Positions 641-7,332 of a DNA stretch of 35,781 nucleotides are shown one piece after another. Under the pieces are notes generated by a model. The model did not search any database. It saw only the letters and a list, made by a program, of their open reading frames with translations, and was not told the origin of the DNA. Source of the stretch: a virus; IMG/VR virus record IMGVR_UViG_3300042898_000957, positions 1-35,781 of that record. One strand, written 5' to 3'. Numbering within the stretch: position 1 is the first letter of the stretch; each line of letters begins with the position of its first letter. The translations under genes were made by a program, and so were the position numbers.

Positions 641-2473
641 ATGGCAACAAGGATGCTACAACGTAGAGGAACTGCTACACAGTGGGCTAACGCTAACCCT
701 ACTCTGGGTTCTGGAGAAATTGGTTTTGAAACCGACACAGGACAATTTAAAATAGGTGACAACTCTACAGCATGGGATGATTTGCCATACTTTAAAAATA
801 TAGAAGATCTAGGCGGAAACCTAGACGATTACATTTTATTAGAACAAAAAGGTGCAGCAAACGGTGTTGCCACATTAGATGGAAGCAATTTAATACCTAC
901 AGCACAGATACCTAGTGGTATTGCTAGAACTGCAGATTACGTTGCATTAACACAAAAAGGTGCAGCAAACGGTGTTGCTACACTTGACGGAAGCAACTTA
1001 ATTCCTTTAACACAAATTTCAAACAGCATTGCTAGATCTTCAGATGTAAGTAACTCAATTTCAAACGCAATTGCAACCCTTGTAGGAACAGCACCAGAAG
1101 CATTAAATACTTTACAAGAAATTGCTAATGCAATTAATGATGATCAAACTTATTTCTTCACCGTTGCCAATAACATAAATAACGCTTTAGATGCTGCTAA
1201 CGAATATACAGATAACAGCATAAGCAATTTATCAGCAGACGTTACAGAACAAATAGAATTATTAGCAAACAATACTGCAAATAATCTTGCAAACGCAGTT
1301 CAATCTTTACAATATGAAATTGGAAATGCTCAATCAGCAGCAGAAGATTATGCAAATGGTTTAGTAGATCAAGAAATATTAGATAGAGATACAGCAATTG
1401 AAGCAGAATCGTTTATATTAGGAAACACAATAGCAAACGCAATTACAGATTTAGAAGAATACACAGATAATGCAATTTCAGATCATAATCTAGAAACATT
1501 AAATGTGCACGGTATATCAAATACAGCAACACTAGTTACTCTCACACAGTTAGAAAATCATGAATCTGATACATCAAACGTACACGGTATCACAAATACC
1601 TTGGCAGTAGTTCTTACAGATGATGCAAGACTTTCTGATGCAAGAACACCACTTGATAACTCTGTTACAAATAACTCTATATCAGGAACAATCAATCAAG
1701 ATAAAATCACAAACCTTGTAACAACACTAGGAAATCTAGCATCCCTTTCAGGAGCAGCCTTTACTGGTAACGTTTCAACAACTGGTAATTTAACAGTAGA
1801 CGGAGATTTCACTGTAAGTGGATCTAACGTTCTTGTATCTGCAACACAAATTCAAATCGAAGATACTTTACTACAACTTGGTCACACAAATGCTAACAAC
1901 GTAACAGATCTAGGTTTGGTGGTTTCTTATAATGATGGAACACAAAAACATGCTGGTATCGTCAAAGACGTTACAGATAGCAAATGGAAATTGTTTGATG
2001 GTGTTACATCAGAACCTGGAACAACAGTTAACTTTGGACAAGGTTCACTAGATGTCTTGGCACTTTTGACACTTGAGGCAAACTCAATCACTGCAACATC
2101 AGATATCACTGCAAACGGAATCGTATTTGCAGACGGTACACAAAGATTAGAAGGTGTACCTTCACGGACACCTATTGTTCAAAAAACAGAAAGTTATACT
2201 TTGTCAGCATTGGCTGAAAGAGACAACTTGATAGAAATGAACAATGCTTATGCAACAACACTAACTATTCCTCTTAACTCAGCAGTAGCCTTCCCAGTTG
2301 GAACATCAATTGATATTCTTCAAACTGGTGTAGGTCAAGTAACAATTGCAGGAGACGCAGGGGTAACAGTAGATGCTACACCAGGTCTTAAATTACGCAC
2401 ACGGTGGTCATCATGCACTCTGTTTAAGAGAGCAACTAACACCTGGGTCGTATACGGCGATTTAAGTGCCTAA
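641..2473 (+). CDS. Tail fibre protein with Mtd-like N-terminal domain
   Basis: A 610-residue protein. The N-terminus (QRRGTATQWANANPTLGSGE, then IGFETDTGQFKIGDNSTAWDDLPYF) is the classic motif of the Mtd_N-type domain of phage receptor-binding and fibre proteins. Residues 69-140 carry two copies of a 36-residue repeat. Residues 150-290 are Ala/Asn/Glu-rich and probably form a trimeric coiled shaft. The element DDARLSDARTPLD near residue 328 is a widespread fibre-shaft motif. Beta-rich segments (SGAAFTGNVSTTGNLTVDGD) follow, and the last 100 residues end in WSSCTLFKRATNTWVVYGDL, a terminal fold typical of phage tail proteins. It has its own extended -10 promoter and leader hairpin. The role is probably receptor binding or adhesion; the receptor is unknown. 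Confidence 0.8.
   Translation: MATRMLQRRGTATQWANANPTLGSGEIGFETDTGQFKIGDNSTAWDDLPYFKNIEDLGGNLDDYILLEQKGAANGVATLDGSNLIPTAQIPSGIARTADYVALTQKGAANGVATLDGSNLIPLTQISNSIARSSDVSNSISNAIATLVGTAPEALNTLQEIANAINDDQTYFFTVANNINNALDAANEYTDNSISNLSADVTEQIELLANNTANNLANAVQSLQYEIGNAQSAAEDYANGLVDQEILDRDTAIEAESFILGNTIANAITDLEEYTDNAISDHNLETLNVHGISNTATLVTLTQLENHESDTSNVHGITNTLAVVLTDDARLSDARTPLDNSVTNNSISGTINQDKITNLVTTLGNLASLSGAAFTGNVSTTGNLTVDGDFTVSGSNVLVSATQIQIEDTLLQLGHTNANNVTDLGLVVSYNDGTQKHAGIVKDVTDSKWKLFDGVTSEPGTTVNFGQGSLDVLALLTLEANSITATSDITANGIVFADGTQRLEGVPSRTPIVQKTESYTLSALAERDNLIEMNNAYATTLTIPLNSAVAFPVGTSIDILQTGVGQVTIAGDAGVTVDATPGLKLRTRWSSCTLFKRATNTWVVYGDLSA
845..1060 (+). repeat. Two tandem 108-bp (36-residue) repeats inside the fibre gene
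   Basis: Units are 845-952 and 953-1060, coding residues 69-104 and 105-140. Each begins QKGAANGVATLDGSNLIP. The first 26 bases are identical between copies, and the rest differs mostly at third positions. This indicates an old in-frame duplication of a shaft module under protein-level selection. Confidence 0.8.
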
Positions 2474-2504: not shown

Positions 2505-3752
2505 ATGGCAATAGGTAAAAGAGCAGGTAAAAAGTCACAACAGGCTAATGACTTTTTAGAACCACAACAACCAACAATTACTTCAGCAACTAACGTTGGT
2601 ACAGGTCGGGCTTTTAATAATGGTGCAGTTGATGTAGCATTTACACTACCAGCAAATTCTCCAGCAGCAACAGGTTTTACAGTGACTTCAAGTCCTGGAT
2701 CTCTTACAGCAACAGGTGCAACTTCTCCGTTGCGGGTTACAGGATTATCATCAGATACAAGTTATACTTTTACAGTTGTTGCAACTAATGCATCAGGTAA
2801 CTCGATTGCTTCAGCAGCATCAAGTTCAGTAACTGTTACAACAGTACCTGCAACACCTGCAGCACCAAGTGCATCATCACCAAACGCTAATCAAGATGTA
2901 ATTTCATGGAGTGCACCAGCAAACGGTGGATCAGCAATTACAAATTATTACTGGGAATCAACCGACGGTAAAAATGGAAATACTGGAACAGGAACCAGTG
3001 CATCACTAGGACAAGAAGCAGGAACAGCACAACAGTACAAAGTTCGGGCAACTAATGCTAACGGAAACTCAGAATTTTCTGCACTATCAAATTCAGTAAC
3101 AACTACATTTTCTTTCGTACCTTTTGGTGTGTTTGGTTTCTCACCTTTCTCAGTATTTGGTTTCTCACCTTTTAACGTGTTTGGTTTCTCCCCATTTAGA
3201 GTGTTTGGTTTCTCACCATTTAGAGTTTTTGGTTTCTCACCAACATACTTCTGTATAGATGAAGATGCACCAGTTCTTACAAAAACTGGAAATAAAAAAG
3301 CAAAAGATATTAAAGTTGGAGACACCTTAATAACAAAAACATTTGATCAATTACCAGTAGGACATTTTGCAGAAGTTATTATGTGGATGGGTATGGGCGG
3401 ACTTACTAATTATAGAGATATTGAGTCAACAGTCACAGAAATAGTTCCAAGTGTGGTAGAAGAAACAGTTATTATTAATAATAATCCAGACATGAGATTT
3501 TCAACTATGGAAGATATTCTTACAGTTAAAAAAAATGTGTATAAGTTTATTCCTTCAAGAGAAATTAAACCTGGAGATACCTTAGTAACAAAAGACTCTT
3601 TAATGGTAGTAGAAAATGTTGAAACAGTTAATGAAACTAGAACAGTATACATGTTTTCTAGAGATCCACTTGGCTTAGTTGTAGCAGGAAACCTGTTATG
3701 CTATAGTTCTTATGCTCTTACACAAGACTATTTAGGTTTACCTACAACCTAA
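2505..3752 (+). CDS. Tail appendage protein: two FN3 domains, aromatic repeats, C-terminal Hint domain
   Basis: A 415-residue protein. Residues about 22-112 and 116-198 are fibronectin type III-like (TGLSSDTSYTFTVVATNASG; YKVRATNANGNSEFSALSNS), as often found on phage tail proteins. Residues 207-246 are five 8-residue repeats of F-x-VFGFSP. From Cys250 the sequence changes to a Hint-type domain: CIDEDAPVLTKTGNKKAKDI followed by KVGDTLI matches intein block A, NNNPDMRF then SREIKPGDTLV resembles block B, and VYMF followed by LVVAGNLLCYSS resembles blocks F/G. The block B histidine appears replaced by Met, and the terminal His-Asn is Tyr-Ser, so full protein splicing is unlikely; cleavage before Cys250 is conceivable. 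It has its own extended -10 promoter. It is probably a virion tip or fibre component. The Hint call rests on motif reading, not a search. Confidence 0.72.
   Translation: MAIGKRAGKKSQQANDFLEPQQPTITSATNVGTGRAFNNGAVDVAFTLPANSPAATGFTVTSSPGSLTATGATSPLRVTGLSSDTSYTFTVVATNASGNSIASAASSSVTVTTVPATPAAPSASSPNANQDVISWSAPANGGSAITNYYWESTDGKNGNTGTGTSASLGQEAGTAQQYKVRATNANGNSEFSALSNSVTTTFSFVPFGVFGFSPFSVFGFSPFNVFGFSPFRVFGFSPFRVFGFSPTYFCIDEDAPVLTKTGNKKAKDIKVGDTLITKTFDQLPVGHFAEVIMWMGMGGLTNYRDIESTVTEIVPSVVEETVIINNNPDMRFSTMEDILTVKKNVYKFIPSREIKPGDTLVTKDSLMVVENVETVNETRTVYMFSRDPLGLVVAGNLLCYSSYALTQDYLGLPTT
3123..3242 (+). repeat. Five tandem 24-bp repeats coding F-x-VFGFSP
   Basis: Five in-frame 24-bp units encode FGVFGFSP, FSVFGFSP, FNVFGFSP, FRVFGFSP, FRVFGFSP (residues 207-246). 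Only the second residue varies; synonymous changes (TCA/TCC, CCT/CCA, GTG/GTA/GTT) show selection on the peptide. The block ends three residues before the Hint cysteine. Confidence 0.9.
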
Positions 3753-3794: not shown

Positions 3795-4460
3795 ATGCAA
3801 CAAGGTCCACCACCAGAACTACGTGGTATTCAGCAATCAACAAAACCACATAAGTTTTTTGAAAGACATTTAAATAATGATTTAGATTTACTTGCAAATG
3901 AATTAATTGATAGATATCAAATGATTGAAAAGGTAGAATTAGATGGCATTACGCCAGTAAACTCTAAAGACTTTTGGCAAGAGTCAGGCAGTGTTTCTAC
4001 TGTAAAGTGGAGAGAATATAATGTATTTCAATTTCATATTGAAGGTATCTATGAGTTATATAAAAATATTCAAGATATGACTAAAGAGGCTTGCGAATAT
4101 TACGAAATAGATTTTGAGAAAAAACAGTTTATGCTTCAAGGATGGTTTAATATTAATTATACCAAAAAAGGAAAGTTAAATTGGCATGATCACGGACACA
4201 CAGGTGCCCCAGATAACTTTCATGGTTACTACTGTGTAAAAGCAGAACCTTCAACAACTTACTACAGAGTGTTTGGTAAAGATATTGAAAATAAAAATAT
4301 AGATAACCGTGCTATATTTTCAGAAATGGGTCATCCACACGCTCAAGGCGATTGGGATTGGGAAGGTCCAAGAATAACCGTTGCATACGACGTTATGACA
4401 CTAAAAGATTTAAAACATGTAGGTAAAGAACACGAACAACACTGGATTCCATTGATATGA
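3795..4460 (+). CDS. Putative 2OG-Fe(II) oxygenase-like (double-stranded beta-helix) protein, copy 1
   Basis: A 221-residue soluble protein. The C-terminal half has a histidine-rich core: WHDHGH (His131, His133, His135), NFHGYY (about 144-149), AEPSTTYYR, GHPH (His180, His182) and PRITVAYDV with Arg193. The H-x-H ... HGYY ... H ... R order resembles the putative 2OG-Fe(II) oxygenase family with an H-x-H motif and a sheet-forming core, but a cupin-type metalloprotein is also possible. The next gene is a clear paralogue, sharing KFFE near the N-terminus, the histidine core and the ending QHW-PL. The ATG has a weak AGGAAA site 8 bases upstream. It overlaps the next gene by 4 bases (ATGA), so the pair is translationally coupled. 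The substrate is unknown. Confidence 0.55.
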   Translation: MQQGPPPELRGIQQSTKPHKFFERHLNNDLDLLANELIDRYQMIEKVELDGITPVNSKDFWQESGSVSTVKWREYNVFQFHIEGIYELYKNIQDMTKEACEYYEIDFEKKQFMLQGWFNINYTKKGKLNWHDHGHTGAPDNFHGYYCVKAEPSTTYYRVFGKDIENKNIDNRAIFSEMGHPHAQGDWDWEGPRITVAYDVMTLKDLKHVGKEHEQHWIPLI

Positions 4461-5086
4461 TGAATCAAAAACCACAACATAAGTTTTTTGAAAAATATTT
4501 GCAAAACGATCTACCAGGATTAACAAAATATCTTTTAAGAGTTGAAAAAGATTTATTTGATGGGGTATATCCCAAAGTAACAAAAGAATTTGCAGCCACT
4601 GTTCCTGGAGTTCACCATTTAGGCACAAGGTTTAATGTTTTTCAATGCTATAATCCAGCAATACATAATATTTTTTCTGCAATACGTGAATTAACAATAG
4701 AAGCATGTGATTATTATGGTATTGATTACAAAAAACAACACTACATGGTTCAGGGATGGTTTAATACAGATGCAATGGCAGAGCCACCGCTTAATGAGGA
4801 TACACATTATCACGATCATTTGGGTGGTACTGGTGCTCCTAATTTTCATGGATATTATTCTATAGATGCAGAACCATCAGTTACATACTATAAAATTGGT
4901 GGACATGATGCAACACCAATTGAAAACGTTAATAAAAACAATAGAGTGATCTTGTCTGAAACTGGACACCCACATGGTATTGGTGCTTGGCCTTTTGATA
5001 AACCAAGAATTACTCTTGCCTATGACGTTTCTCCTTTTATGTATATGAGTGGTGACGAACTTCAACACTGGGTTCCGCTACCGTGA
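4457..5086 (+). CDS. Putative 2OG-Fe(II) oxygenase-like protein, copy 2 (paralogue of 3795-4460)
   Basis: A 209-residue protein sharing the whole plan of its upstream neighbour: QHKFFEKYLQNDL at the start, the central QGWFN, YHDH (His119, His121), GTGAPNFHGYY, AEPSVTYYK, GHPH (His171, His173), PRITLAYDV and a final QHWVPLP. Conservation concentrates on candidate metal-binding His residues and the Arg of PRIT, which suggests that both copies remain active. ATG 4457 overlaps the previous stop (ATGA); ATG 4460 is an alternative start. The small Cys-rich gene follows with a GTGA overlap. The pair probably arose by tandem duplication. Whether it works on a small metabolite, nucleotide or protein side chain cannot be told from sequence. 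Confidence 0.55.
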   Translation: MMNQKPQHKFFEKYLQNDLPGLTKYLLRVEKDLFDGVYPKVTKEFAATVPGVHHLGTRFNVFQCYNPAIHNIFSAIRELTIEACDYYGIDYKKQHYMVQGWFNTDAMAEPPLNEDTHYHDHLGGTGAPNFHGYYSIDAEPSVTYYKIGGHDATPIENVNKNNRVILSETGHPHGIGAWPFDKPRITLAYDVSPFMYMSGDELQHWVPLP

Positions 5087-5301: not shown

Positions 5302-7332
5302 ATGTCAGACTTTTTTAGTTTTAAACTTCCAGAGGATTTTGTAACAAAATACACAACCATGGATAGTCCATTTGGATTTAACGATGCTGGAAACAACTCA
5401 TTAGGTGAAATTACTTTTATAAGAACCTATTCCCGCGTCAAAGAAGATGGAACTAAAGAAAGATGGCACGAAGTTTGTAAGCGTGTAATCGAAGGCATGT
5501 ATTCAGTACAAAAGAATCATGCAAAAGAAAATAGACTACCTTGGAATGACTATAAGGCTCAAAAGTCTGCTCAAGAAGCATTTGATCGTATGTTCAATCT
5601 TAAATGGACACCACCAGGTCGTGGTATGTGGGCTTTTGGAACCCCCATGACAATGGAAAAAAGGAACTCTGCAGCCCTTCAAAACTGTGCCATGGTATCT
5701 ACTAAGGATCTTGATAGAAACGACCCAGGGGCACTGTTTGCGTGGGTTATGGACGCTCTCATGCTTGGTATTGGGGTTGGATTTGATACCGTTGGACAAG
5801 ATAAAGAATTTTCAATATATGCACCATCAGAAGTTGATTCAATTTATGAAATTCCAGACACTAGAGAAGGTTGGGTAGAGTCTGTTAGATTATTATTAAA
5901 CTCATACCTAAGAACAGGTCAAGCAAAACAAAAATTTAATTATGATTTAATAAGACCTTTTGGTTCTCCAATTAAAGGATTTGGCGGGGTAGCGTCAGGA
6001 CCAGAACCATTAATTAAATTACATAATCAAATTGATAAAGTAATTGGTGGAAGAATTGGTGAAAAACTTGATGCCAGAGCAATAGTAGATATAATTAACT
6101 TAATTGGAACATGTGTGGTTTCAGGAAATGTTCGTAGATCAGCAACTTTAGCACTAGGTTCTGCTGGAGATAAAGACTTTATTAATTTAAAAAATCCAGA
6201 GGTTTTTCCAGAAAGAAATTCATTTGATTTAAATAATCCAGGTTGGGCTTGGATGTCTAATAACTCTATTTCAGCAACAGTTGGAACTAAGTATGAAGAC
6301 TATGTAGATTTAATAGTTAATAATGGAGAACCAGGTTTTATTTGGTTAGATGTTGCTAGAAATTACGGTAGATTGAAAGATCCAGCAGATGGAAAAGACT
6401 ATAGAGTAATGGGATTTAACCCATGTGCTGAACAACCATTAGAGTCATATGAGTTGTGTACATTGGTTGAGGTTCATTTAAATAGACATGAAAATAAAGA
6501 AGATTTCTTAAGAACTTTAAAGTTTGCATATCTTTATGGTAAGACGGTAACTCTTGTTCCAACACATTGGCAACAAACAAATGGAATTATGCAACGCAAT
6601 AGAAGAATTGGAACATCGCTTACAGGCATTGCTTCCTTTTCAGACAAACATGGTTTGCCTATAGTTCGTGAATGGATGGATGAGGGATATTTAAATATTA
6701 AAAAATATGATCATCAATATTCAGAATGGCTTTGTGTTCGTGAATCAATAAGAGTCACAACAGTAAAACCATCAGGTAGCGTAAGTATTCTTTCTGGTGC
6801 AACTCCAGGAGTTCACTGGGGTCCAGGTGGAAAGTTCTTTATGAGAGCAATTAGATTTGGTGAATCTGATCCTATGATTCATTTGTTTAAGGCTGCTGGA
6901 TATAAAATAGAAGATGATGTTGTATCTGCAAATACAAAAGTTGTATATTTTCCAATTGCTTCAGAACATGAAAGAGCAGAAAAAGATGTTAGTCTTTTTG
7001 AAAAAATTGCACTTGCTGCAACTGCTCAAAAATATTGGTCTGACAATGGGGTGTCTGTAACCCTTTCATTTGATAAAGAGACAGAGTCTAAGCATGTTGC
7101 TCCAGCACTACACATGTACGAAGGACAATTAAAGGCTGTATCGTTTTTGCCAATGGGAAACACGGTATATCCACAACAACCTTATACAGAAATTACAGAG
7201 GAAGAGTATAATAGTTATGTGGGACAGATTGCTAAAATCAACTGGGACGCTATCTATGATGGAGTAGAGAATCTAGAAGCACAGGGTGAGGCATACTGCA
7301 CTACAGATGTATGTGAAATAAAGGTAGGTTAA
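5302..7332 (+). CDS. nrdJ: Adenosylcobalamin-dependent (class II) ribonucleotide reductase
   Basis: A 676-residue protein. It reduces ribonucleotides to deoxyribonucleotides with a thiyl radical generated from adenosylcobalamin, supplying dNTPs for phage replication. Visible hallmarks are NCAMVS with Cys129 (redox-active pair member), NPCAEQPLESYELC with Cys375 (radical cysteine), Glu377 and Cys386 (second redox cysteine; 11-residue spacing as in the Lactobacillus enzyme), KPSGSVSILSG in the C-terminal barrel region, and a C-terminal shuttle pair CTTDVC (Cys666/Cys671). These fit the monomeric NrdJ type, though the length is slightly below the classical 739 residues. The start ATG 5302 follows AGGAG at 5291-5295. 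It has its own promoter and is followed after 2 bases by the P4H-type oxygenase. Its position within the late structural region is unusual. All key residues are present, so it should be active. Confidence 0.95.
   Translation: MSDFFSFKLPEDFVTKYTTMDSPFGFNDAGNNSLGEITFIRTYSRVKEDGTKERWHEVCKRVIEGMYSVQKNHAKENRLPWNDYKAQKSAQEAFDRMFNLKWTPPGRGMWAFGTPMTMEKRNSAALQNCAMVSTKDLDRNDPGALFAWVMDALMLGIGVGFDTVGQDKEFSIYAPSEVDSIYEIPDTREGWVESVRLLLNSYLRTGQAKQKFNYDLIRPFGSPIKGFGGVASGPEPLIKLHNQIDKVIGGRIGEKLDARAIVDIINLIGTCVVSGNVRRSATLALGSAGDKDFINLKNPEVFPERNSFDLNNPGWAWMSNNSISATVGTKYEDYVDLIVNNGEPGFIWLDVARNYGRLKDPADGKDYRVMGFNPCAEQPLESYELCTLVEVHLNRHENKEDFLRTLKFAYLYGKTVTLVPTHWQQTNGIMQRNRRIGTSLTGIASFSDKHGLPIVREWMDEGYLNIKKYDHQYSEWLCVRESIRVTTVKPSGSVSILSGATPGVHWGPGGKFFMRAIRFGESDPMIHLFKAAGYKIEDDVVSANTKVVYFPIASEHERAEKDVSLFEKIALAATAQKYWSDNGVSVTLSFDKETESKHVAPALHMYEGQLKAVSFLPMGNTVYPQQPYTEITEEEYNSYVGQIAKINWDAIYDGVENLEAQGEAYCTTDVCEIKVG

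Follow-up and report, generated by a model that had tools for sequence, protein, structure and literature searches.

A Hint domain behind aromatic repeats at the C-terminus of a predicted phage fibre protein, and its probable role in trimming or attachment of the fibre end

Introduction

Known carriers of Hint domains are inteins, Hedgehog proteins, bacterial intein-like (BIL) proteins and pretoxins. The known BIL domains occur in variable bacterial proteins. Those of the B type cleave at their N side without a C-terminal motif (PMC7765530). Some inteins devoid of the block B or the penultimate His still splice (PMC7664689). In Hedgehog, a C-terminal Hint (Hog) domain acts via its first Cys on the N-terminal partner. 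HINT domains of polymorphic toxin systems are autoproteolytic and follow filamentous repeats (PMC3482391), while C-terminal chaperones of the S74 peptidase type mature a fibre or spike by autoproteolytic removal of a domain (PMC7824862). In the open-licence literature we found Hint domains in phage terminases, in other inteins and, just before the toxin, in polymorphic toxins. The same literature yielded no phage fibre with a terminal Hint domain of the type described below, and no prolyl hydroxylases linked to phage fibres in such an arrangement.

The present analysis concerns a viral DNA stretch of 35,781 nucleotides (IMG/VR record IMGVR_UViG_3300042898_000957, positions 1 to 35,781), hereafter called the window, which encodes a fibre-type protein ending in such a domain. 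B-type BIL domains share with it the Hint fold, the first Cys (Cys1), the loss of the C-terminal motif and the expected N-side cleavage, but the domain of the window is terminal on a phage fibre protein, with nothing behind it, and carries SxxE in block B. Like the Hog domain, it is a C-terminal Hint expected to act through Cys1 on an N-terminal partner, whereas it is viral, has neither the sterol-recognition region nor the block B His, and its partner is an array of aromatic repeats. Inteins agree with it in fold and block order, and distant relatives of the window's protein even have the C-terminal His-Asn; however, this family is terminal, with no sizeable C-extein and no homing endonuclease. 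In contrast to polymorphic toxins, no toxin stands behind the Hint domain. Jumbo phages (NCTB and the Erwinia SNUABM phages) possess C-terminal Hint domains of detectable similarity on structural proteins, behind collagen-like stretches, but these have the canonical TxxH and His-Asn and, in NCTB, a Gly-rich junction. They are called an "intein domain" by record name only, and no mechanism for them was found in the literature. The S74 peptidases, although their Ser/Lys catalysis is unrelated and the parallel is one of role only, are by analogy the nearest functional parallel to a Hint-capped fibre. We rate the fold and the expected chemistry of the window's domain as known, and its location, its partner and its altered active site as new.

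Results and Discussion

Anatomy of the fibre protein

The modular structure of the protein and its genetic surroundings is summarized in Table 1. The coordinates and the anatomy given in the first-pass annotation, i.e. two FN3 domains, five F-x-VFGFSP repeats and a Cys residue (Cys250) three residues further on, were all reproduced by inspection of the ORF, Pfam searches, Tandem Repeats Finder (TRF) and residue shuffling. TRF described the repeat array as 5.1 copies of a 24-bp unit, and none of 20,000 shuffles of the residues of this stretch contained more than one F-x-VFGFSP unit. The three residues separating the last repeat from Cys250 are TYF. In a model of the full-length protein the FN3 and Hint domains were predicted with confidence, and the repeats (residues 208-247) had a pLDDT below 50. 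The 415-aa protein is presumably a component of a tail fibre or of an adhesin-like appendage, its virion location being suggested by gene order alone.

Table 1. Features of the fibre gene and of neighbouring genes in the window
Feature	Position	Strand	Evidence
Tail-fibre gene with Mtd_N, directly upstream	641..2473	+	Pfam Mtd_N, E 5.9e-12
FN3-FN3-aromatic repeats-Hint protein, fibre-type, 415 aa	2505..3752	+	single unbroken ORF
First FN3, about residues 22-114	2568..2846	+	Pfam fn3, E 1.2e-8; beta-sandwich, pLDDT >90
Second FN3, about residues 116-201	2850..3107	+	second fn3 stretch; pLDDT about 86-96
Array of five F-x-VFGFSP octapeptides (predicted disordered), residues 207-246	3123..3242	+	
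Hint domain, Cys250 to Thr415, 166 residues	3252..3749	+	AF2 model, PDB fold matches, family profile
Cys250 (Hint Cys1), predicted nucleophile and predicted scissile junction	3252..3254	+	
Block B Ser333-x-x-Glu336, in place of Thr-x-x-His	3501..3512	+	register from intein profile alignment and relatives
Tyr400-Ser401, standing where block G has the C-terminal His-Asn	3702..3707	+	
Two paralogous ORFs (3795-4460, 4457-5086), directly downstream	3795..5086	+	conserved synteny
2OG-Fe(II) oxygenase, prolyl-4-hydroxylase-like, PF13640	7335..7865	+	E 2.2e-10

Identification of the Hint domain

Searches with the single protein (Pfam, NCBIfam, phmmer against PDB) were suggestive at most. The Pfam scores of the window's protein (Intein_splicing, E 0.023-0.047; Hint_2, E about 0.1, with 0.13 where Intein_splicing gave 0.047) lie under the cut-offs, and the only match among PDB sequences was the TFIIB intein (E 1.3). 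Among 35 family members the best Pfam Hint/intein E-value was 6.5e-5, against 0.023, below the curated cut-off, for the window. A profile built from 35 relatives matched first the PDB sequences 2lwy (BIL domain, E 9.5e-4), 4e2u (RadA intein, E 1.2e-3) and 5o9j (TFIIB intein, E 2.2e-3); a BIL domain together with inteins made up its five best matches, whose E-values ranged from 9.5e-4 to 0.038. The profile check proposed by the first-pass annotation succeeded with the family profile but fell short of the Pfam Hint cut-offs with the window's protein alone.

An AlphaFold (AF2) model of the domain, calculated on the alignment of 35 relatives (pLDDT 88.6, pTM 0.83), has the horseshoe-shaped Hint fold. 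In a Foldseek search of PDB, all 48 chains matched with E below 0.001 were Hint domains, which agrees with the domain type originally proposed. The leading match was 2lwy (E 1.4e-6, TM 0.63/0.75), and the others included BIL2 of Tetrahymena and the Hedgehog structures 1at0 and 6tyy. The nearest predicted viral structures are proteins of uncultured phages that bear no annotation beyond "Fibronectin type III", "PASTA_pknB" or "Hint domain containing". Because the family profile and the predicted fold override the Pfam scores below the cut-offs, the 166-residue domain is, as modelled, a genuine Hint domain. The segments noticed earlier, which resemble intein block A (CIDEDAPVLTKTG), block B (ETVIINNNPDMRFSTMEDIL) and block F/G (RTVYMFSRDPLGLVVAGNLLCYS), are all present in it.

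A family of repeat-associated Hint domains

Scans of viral contigs, after removal of duplicates, provided 78 distinct Hint domains, including those of jumbo phages. Their sources are mostly uncultured phages, largely from freshwater. The Hint domain is C-terminal in every complete member and is nowhere inserted between two exteins. Nearly all of these domains directly follow aromatic or proline repeats of the FxVFGFSP, FFxPP, FFPP, YSFTP, FPSFPT or FFRPPPPP type, while the junction in phage NCTB is a run of Gly behind collagen-like or other structural sequence. The N-terminal modules across the family are FN3 or PASTA (the latter with E 4e-6). On the maximum-likelihood tree, a few deep, long branches of which are unsure, the repeat classes require 11 changes where a minimum of four would suffice, and so the Hint domains and the repeats appear, from these sequences, to have recombined with their adjacency retained. 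That a large phage family ends its fibre proteins in a Hint domain, after repeats unlike in sequence but alike in their aromatic/proline composition, suggests a general mechanism by which fibre tips are finished or attached.

Several phages carry two repeat-Hint genes located 8-10 kb apart. Record IMGVR_UViG_3300044638_001517 is identical to the window over the Hint gene and has its second, PASTA-type gene 8.3 kb upstream, a position that would fall outside the window. In other homologues (L036-L041 and L189) what stands behind the PASTA/FN3 modules and FGFSP repeats is not a Hint domain but a short tail rich in Cys (e.g. ...CNFSNCCGAGSGAACATCSCRAC); contig IMGVR 3300027769_000023 encodes both the Cys-tail and the Hint versions. 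A divergent Hint domain with Ser in the first position instead of Cys, TxxH kept and a Phe-Asp end follows FN3 and (GAF)n repeats in L182:3146-4411. The tail-fibre cluster of phage NCTB (L114:4960-12219) encodes three Hint proteins, two of them with the domain behind structural sequence and a Gly-run-Cys junction, and one a stand-alone Hint-like ORF of 153 aa.

Active-site residues

Column-by-column alignment placed Cys in the first position of 77 of the 78 Hint domains and Ser in the remaining one; Cys1 had played no part in the patterns with which the second viral scan was run. Neither an unconserved Cys250 nor the lack of any Hint match or fold, which the first-pass annotation had named as sequence-level grounds for its rejection, was observed. 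A disulphide role for Cys250 is unlikely and was rejected, since Cys1 is the sole Cys of the entire ORF in 40 of the 78 relatives.

The residue in register with the block B His is Glu336 (RfSleedvL against RVTRSHSVF in the alignment of the family profile to the TFIIB intein), and not Met, as had been stated; alignment to solved inteins and to the 78 relatives places Met335 one residue earlier. The block B His is kept in only 10 of 78 members, as TxxH in three jumbo-phage members and L182 and as SxxH in six, and the others have SxxQ (22), TxxE (10) or SxxE (36). Since functional inteins without this His have been published (PMC7664689), its absence does not bar membership among Hint domains.

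His-Asn still closes the domain in 47 of the 78 members. It is missing from a clade of 30 members that includes the window (tree support 100/99), in which the His position is occupied by Tyr in 28/30 and the Asn position by Asn, His, Gly, Ser or Pro; the earlier reading of Tyr-Ser in the window was correct. Within this clade the invariant columns number only 12 out of about 160, and they include Cys1 and both block B residues, Ser84 and Glu87 (Ser333 and Glu336 in the window's protein). The naive chance of these three named positions falling within the 12 columns is 3e-4, although invariance may also be structural. Relative to the motif pattern of B-type BIL domains, the window has kept Cys1 and the block B Ser, replaced His by Glu and lost His-Asn. 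The simplest reading of these alignments is that the window's clade has retained the N-side reaction and given up Asn cyclisation, and this accords with the previous opinion that splicing is unlikely, with N-terminal cleavage or transfer possible. The dN/dS ratio of the Hint domain ranged from 0.08 to 0.56 in 11 pairs, nine of which were at or below about 0.25, as would be expected of a domain mostly under purifying selection.

Across the family the His-Asn is followed by 1-15 residues, usually 3-5. A nucleophile at +1 (Cys/Ser/Thr) is found in only 10 of the 47 His-Asn relatives, and the C-junction of nine YSFTP-type relatives reads His-Asn-Ser. Residue -1 of the N-side junction is unrestricted. 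At +2 after His-Asn, Lys occurs in 43 of the 47 members (x-K-x-F/Y; e.g. L116, L117, L129 and L150), and in the clade without His-Asn this position holds Tyr or Cys in 28/30.

The graded series TxxH with His-Asn, SxxH with His-Asn, SxxQ with His-Asn, SxxE with His-Asn and SxxE without His-Asn constitutes a natural experiment on the residues needed for each half-reaction.

Proposed maturation of the fibre end

In the freshwater virus of the window and in dozens of its relatives, the fibre end is probably trimmed or chemically attached by a route for which we found no phage precedent in the open-licence literature. We are slightly inclined to the view that a Hint domain of the N-terminal-cleavage type trims the fibre so that it ends in its repeats, the Hint cap being discarded. 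The Hint domain would fold and, being adapted to the N-terminal half of the intein reaction, would convert the peptide bond before Cys250 into a thioester on Cys250 (N-S acyl shift), with the Ser333/Glu336 pair presumably substituting for the usual Thr/His. Water or a small thiol would then release the thioester, so that the fibre would terminate in ...FGFSPTYF and no longer carry the Hint cap. The domain would thus serve as a removable cap restraining the sticky, disordered aromatic tail until fibre assembly. We infer the cleavage, its timing and the repeat array as the mature end alike.

Trimming is supported by the Hint fold, by the existence of the family, by the conservation of the N-side residues, by the loss of C-side residues in the window's clade and by the placement of the domain behind the repeats. 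Two homologues (L215 and L217) contain no Hint domain and end in repeats, and therefore resemble the product expected from Hint cleavage. Counting against it, Glu at the position of the block B His is absent among the functional examples that we found documented, and simple trimming does not explain the +2 Lys in 43/47 His-Asn members.

A second molecule, such as the host envelope, a further fibre subunit, a lipid or a sugar, might instead take over the thioester on Cys250 through an amine or hydroxyl, with covalent attachment of the repeat tail, as Hedgehog is joined to cholesterol. Hog domains are indeed among the PDB fold matches, the PASTA and FN3 modules upstream of the repeats are of the adhesive type, the junction tolerates any residue at -1, and the +2 Lys (Tyr/Cys in 28/30 of the other members) makes a nearby acceptor conceivable. 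Unlike in Hedgehog, with its sterol-recognition region, no acceptor-binding domain follows the Hint, and we regard such acyl transfer as unlikely. The conserved +2 Lys tail, as read from the alignment, may be the main hint of something more than trimming. In a more specific version, which we consider distinctly improbable, a thioester formed at the Ser/Glu site by the aromatic, possibly hydroxylated, repeat tail would be transferred to an acceptor on the host envelope or the virion or, in the His-Asn relatives, to the +2 Lys as an isopeptide; if true, thioester transfer would be a device for covalent phage attachment or cross-linking. As another possibility, the window's clade could have given up the chemistry and kept the fold only as a structural or receptor-binding cap. 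The missing His-Asn, the exchange of the block B His for Glu and the graded loss of catalytic residues across the family agree with an inert domain, but Cys1, Ser84 and Glu87 are invariant in 30/30 members without His-Asn and nothing obliges a dead fold to begin with an unpaired Cys, and we find this explanation rather unlikely as well.

It is highly improbable that the domain is a true splicing intein. The profile and fold matches do establish homology to inteins, and the nine YSFTP relatives with His-Asn-Ser would in principle be able to splice a tail of three residues. The window, in contrast, having Tyr-Ser in place of His-Asn, cannot splice in the usual way, and for want of a +1 nucleophile a true intein was rejected for it; that nucleophile is also missing in most His-Asn members. 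Moreover, there is no C-extein of any size, the domain is terminal rather than inserted in a conserved protein, and no homing endonuclease is present. The idea of a pretoxin Hint releasing a C-terminal toxin deserves the least credence: HINT domains are known just before toxins in polymorphic toxin systems, also behind repeats of the tail-fibre type (PMC3482391), but the few residues after His-Asn leave no cargo, and toxin release was rejected because no C-terminal cargo or toxin domain stands behind the Hint.

Genetic neighbourhood and host

Genes of the Mtd_N type precede most family members for which upstream sequence exists. The two paralogous ORFs directly downstream of the fibre gene have no match to a Pfam family; judged by eye from their His-x-Asp ... 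His ... Arg pattern, they may be divergent 2OG-Fe(II) oxygenases. Matches to PF13640 above the cut-off numbered 91 in 20 large phage records, and 57 of them lie within 7 kb downstream of Hint genes, a region representing 11.7% of the bases, which corresponds to a 12.6-fold density, although these records are related and a binomial P is not meaningful as such. Such oxygenase genes lie directly downstream of repeat-Hint genes in the window and in the G006-G014 and G018 records. Hint genes of the FFxPP type are mostly followed by five of them, often in a row, the FGFSP type of the window by the two divergent paralogues and then one PF13640 gene, and YSFTP-type records have no oxygenase genes near the Hint gene. 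Hydroxylation of the repeats by these oxygenases is no more than a reasonable guess, although with the arrays so close the idea that the repeats are modified can be tested.

The major capsid protein encoded in the window is closest to those of Streptomyces phages (43% identity over 77%). Because of this match and of the PASTA/FN3 modules, the host is likely to be actinobacterial. Two scans of bacterial genomes revealed no member of the Hint family and hence no prophage host. A gene set for a B12-dependent (class II) ribonucleotide reductase (window positions 5302-7332) lies between the tail-appendage genes and is syntenic in many relatives.
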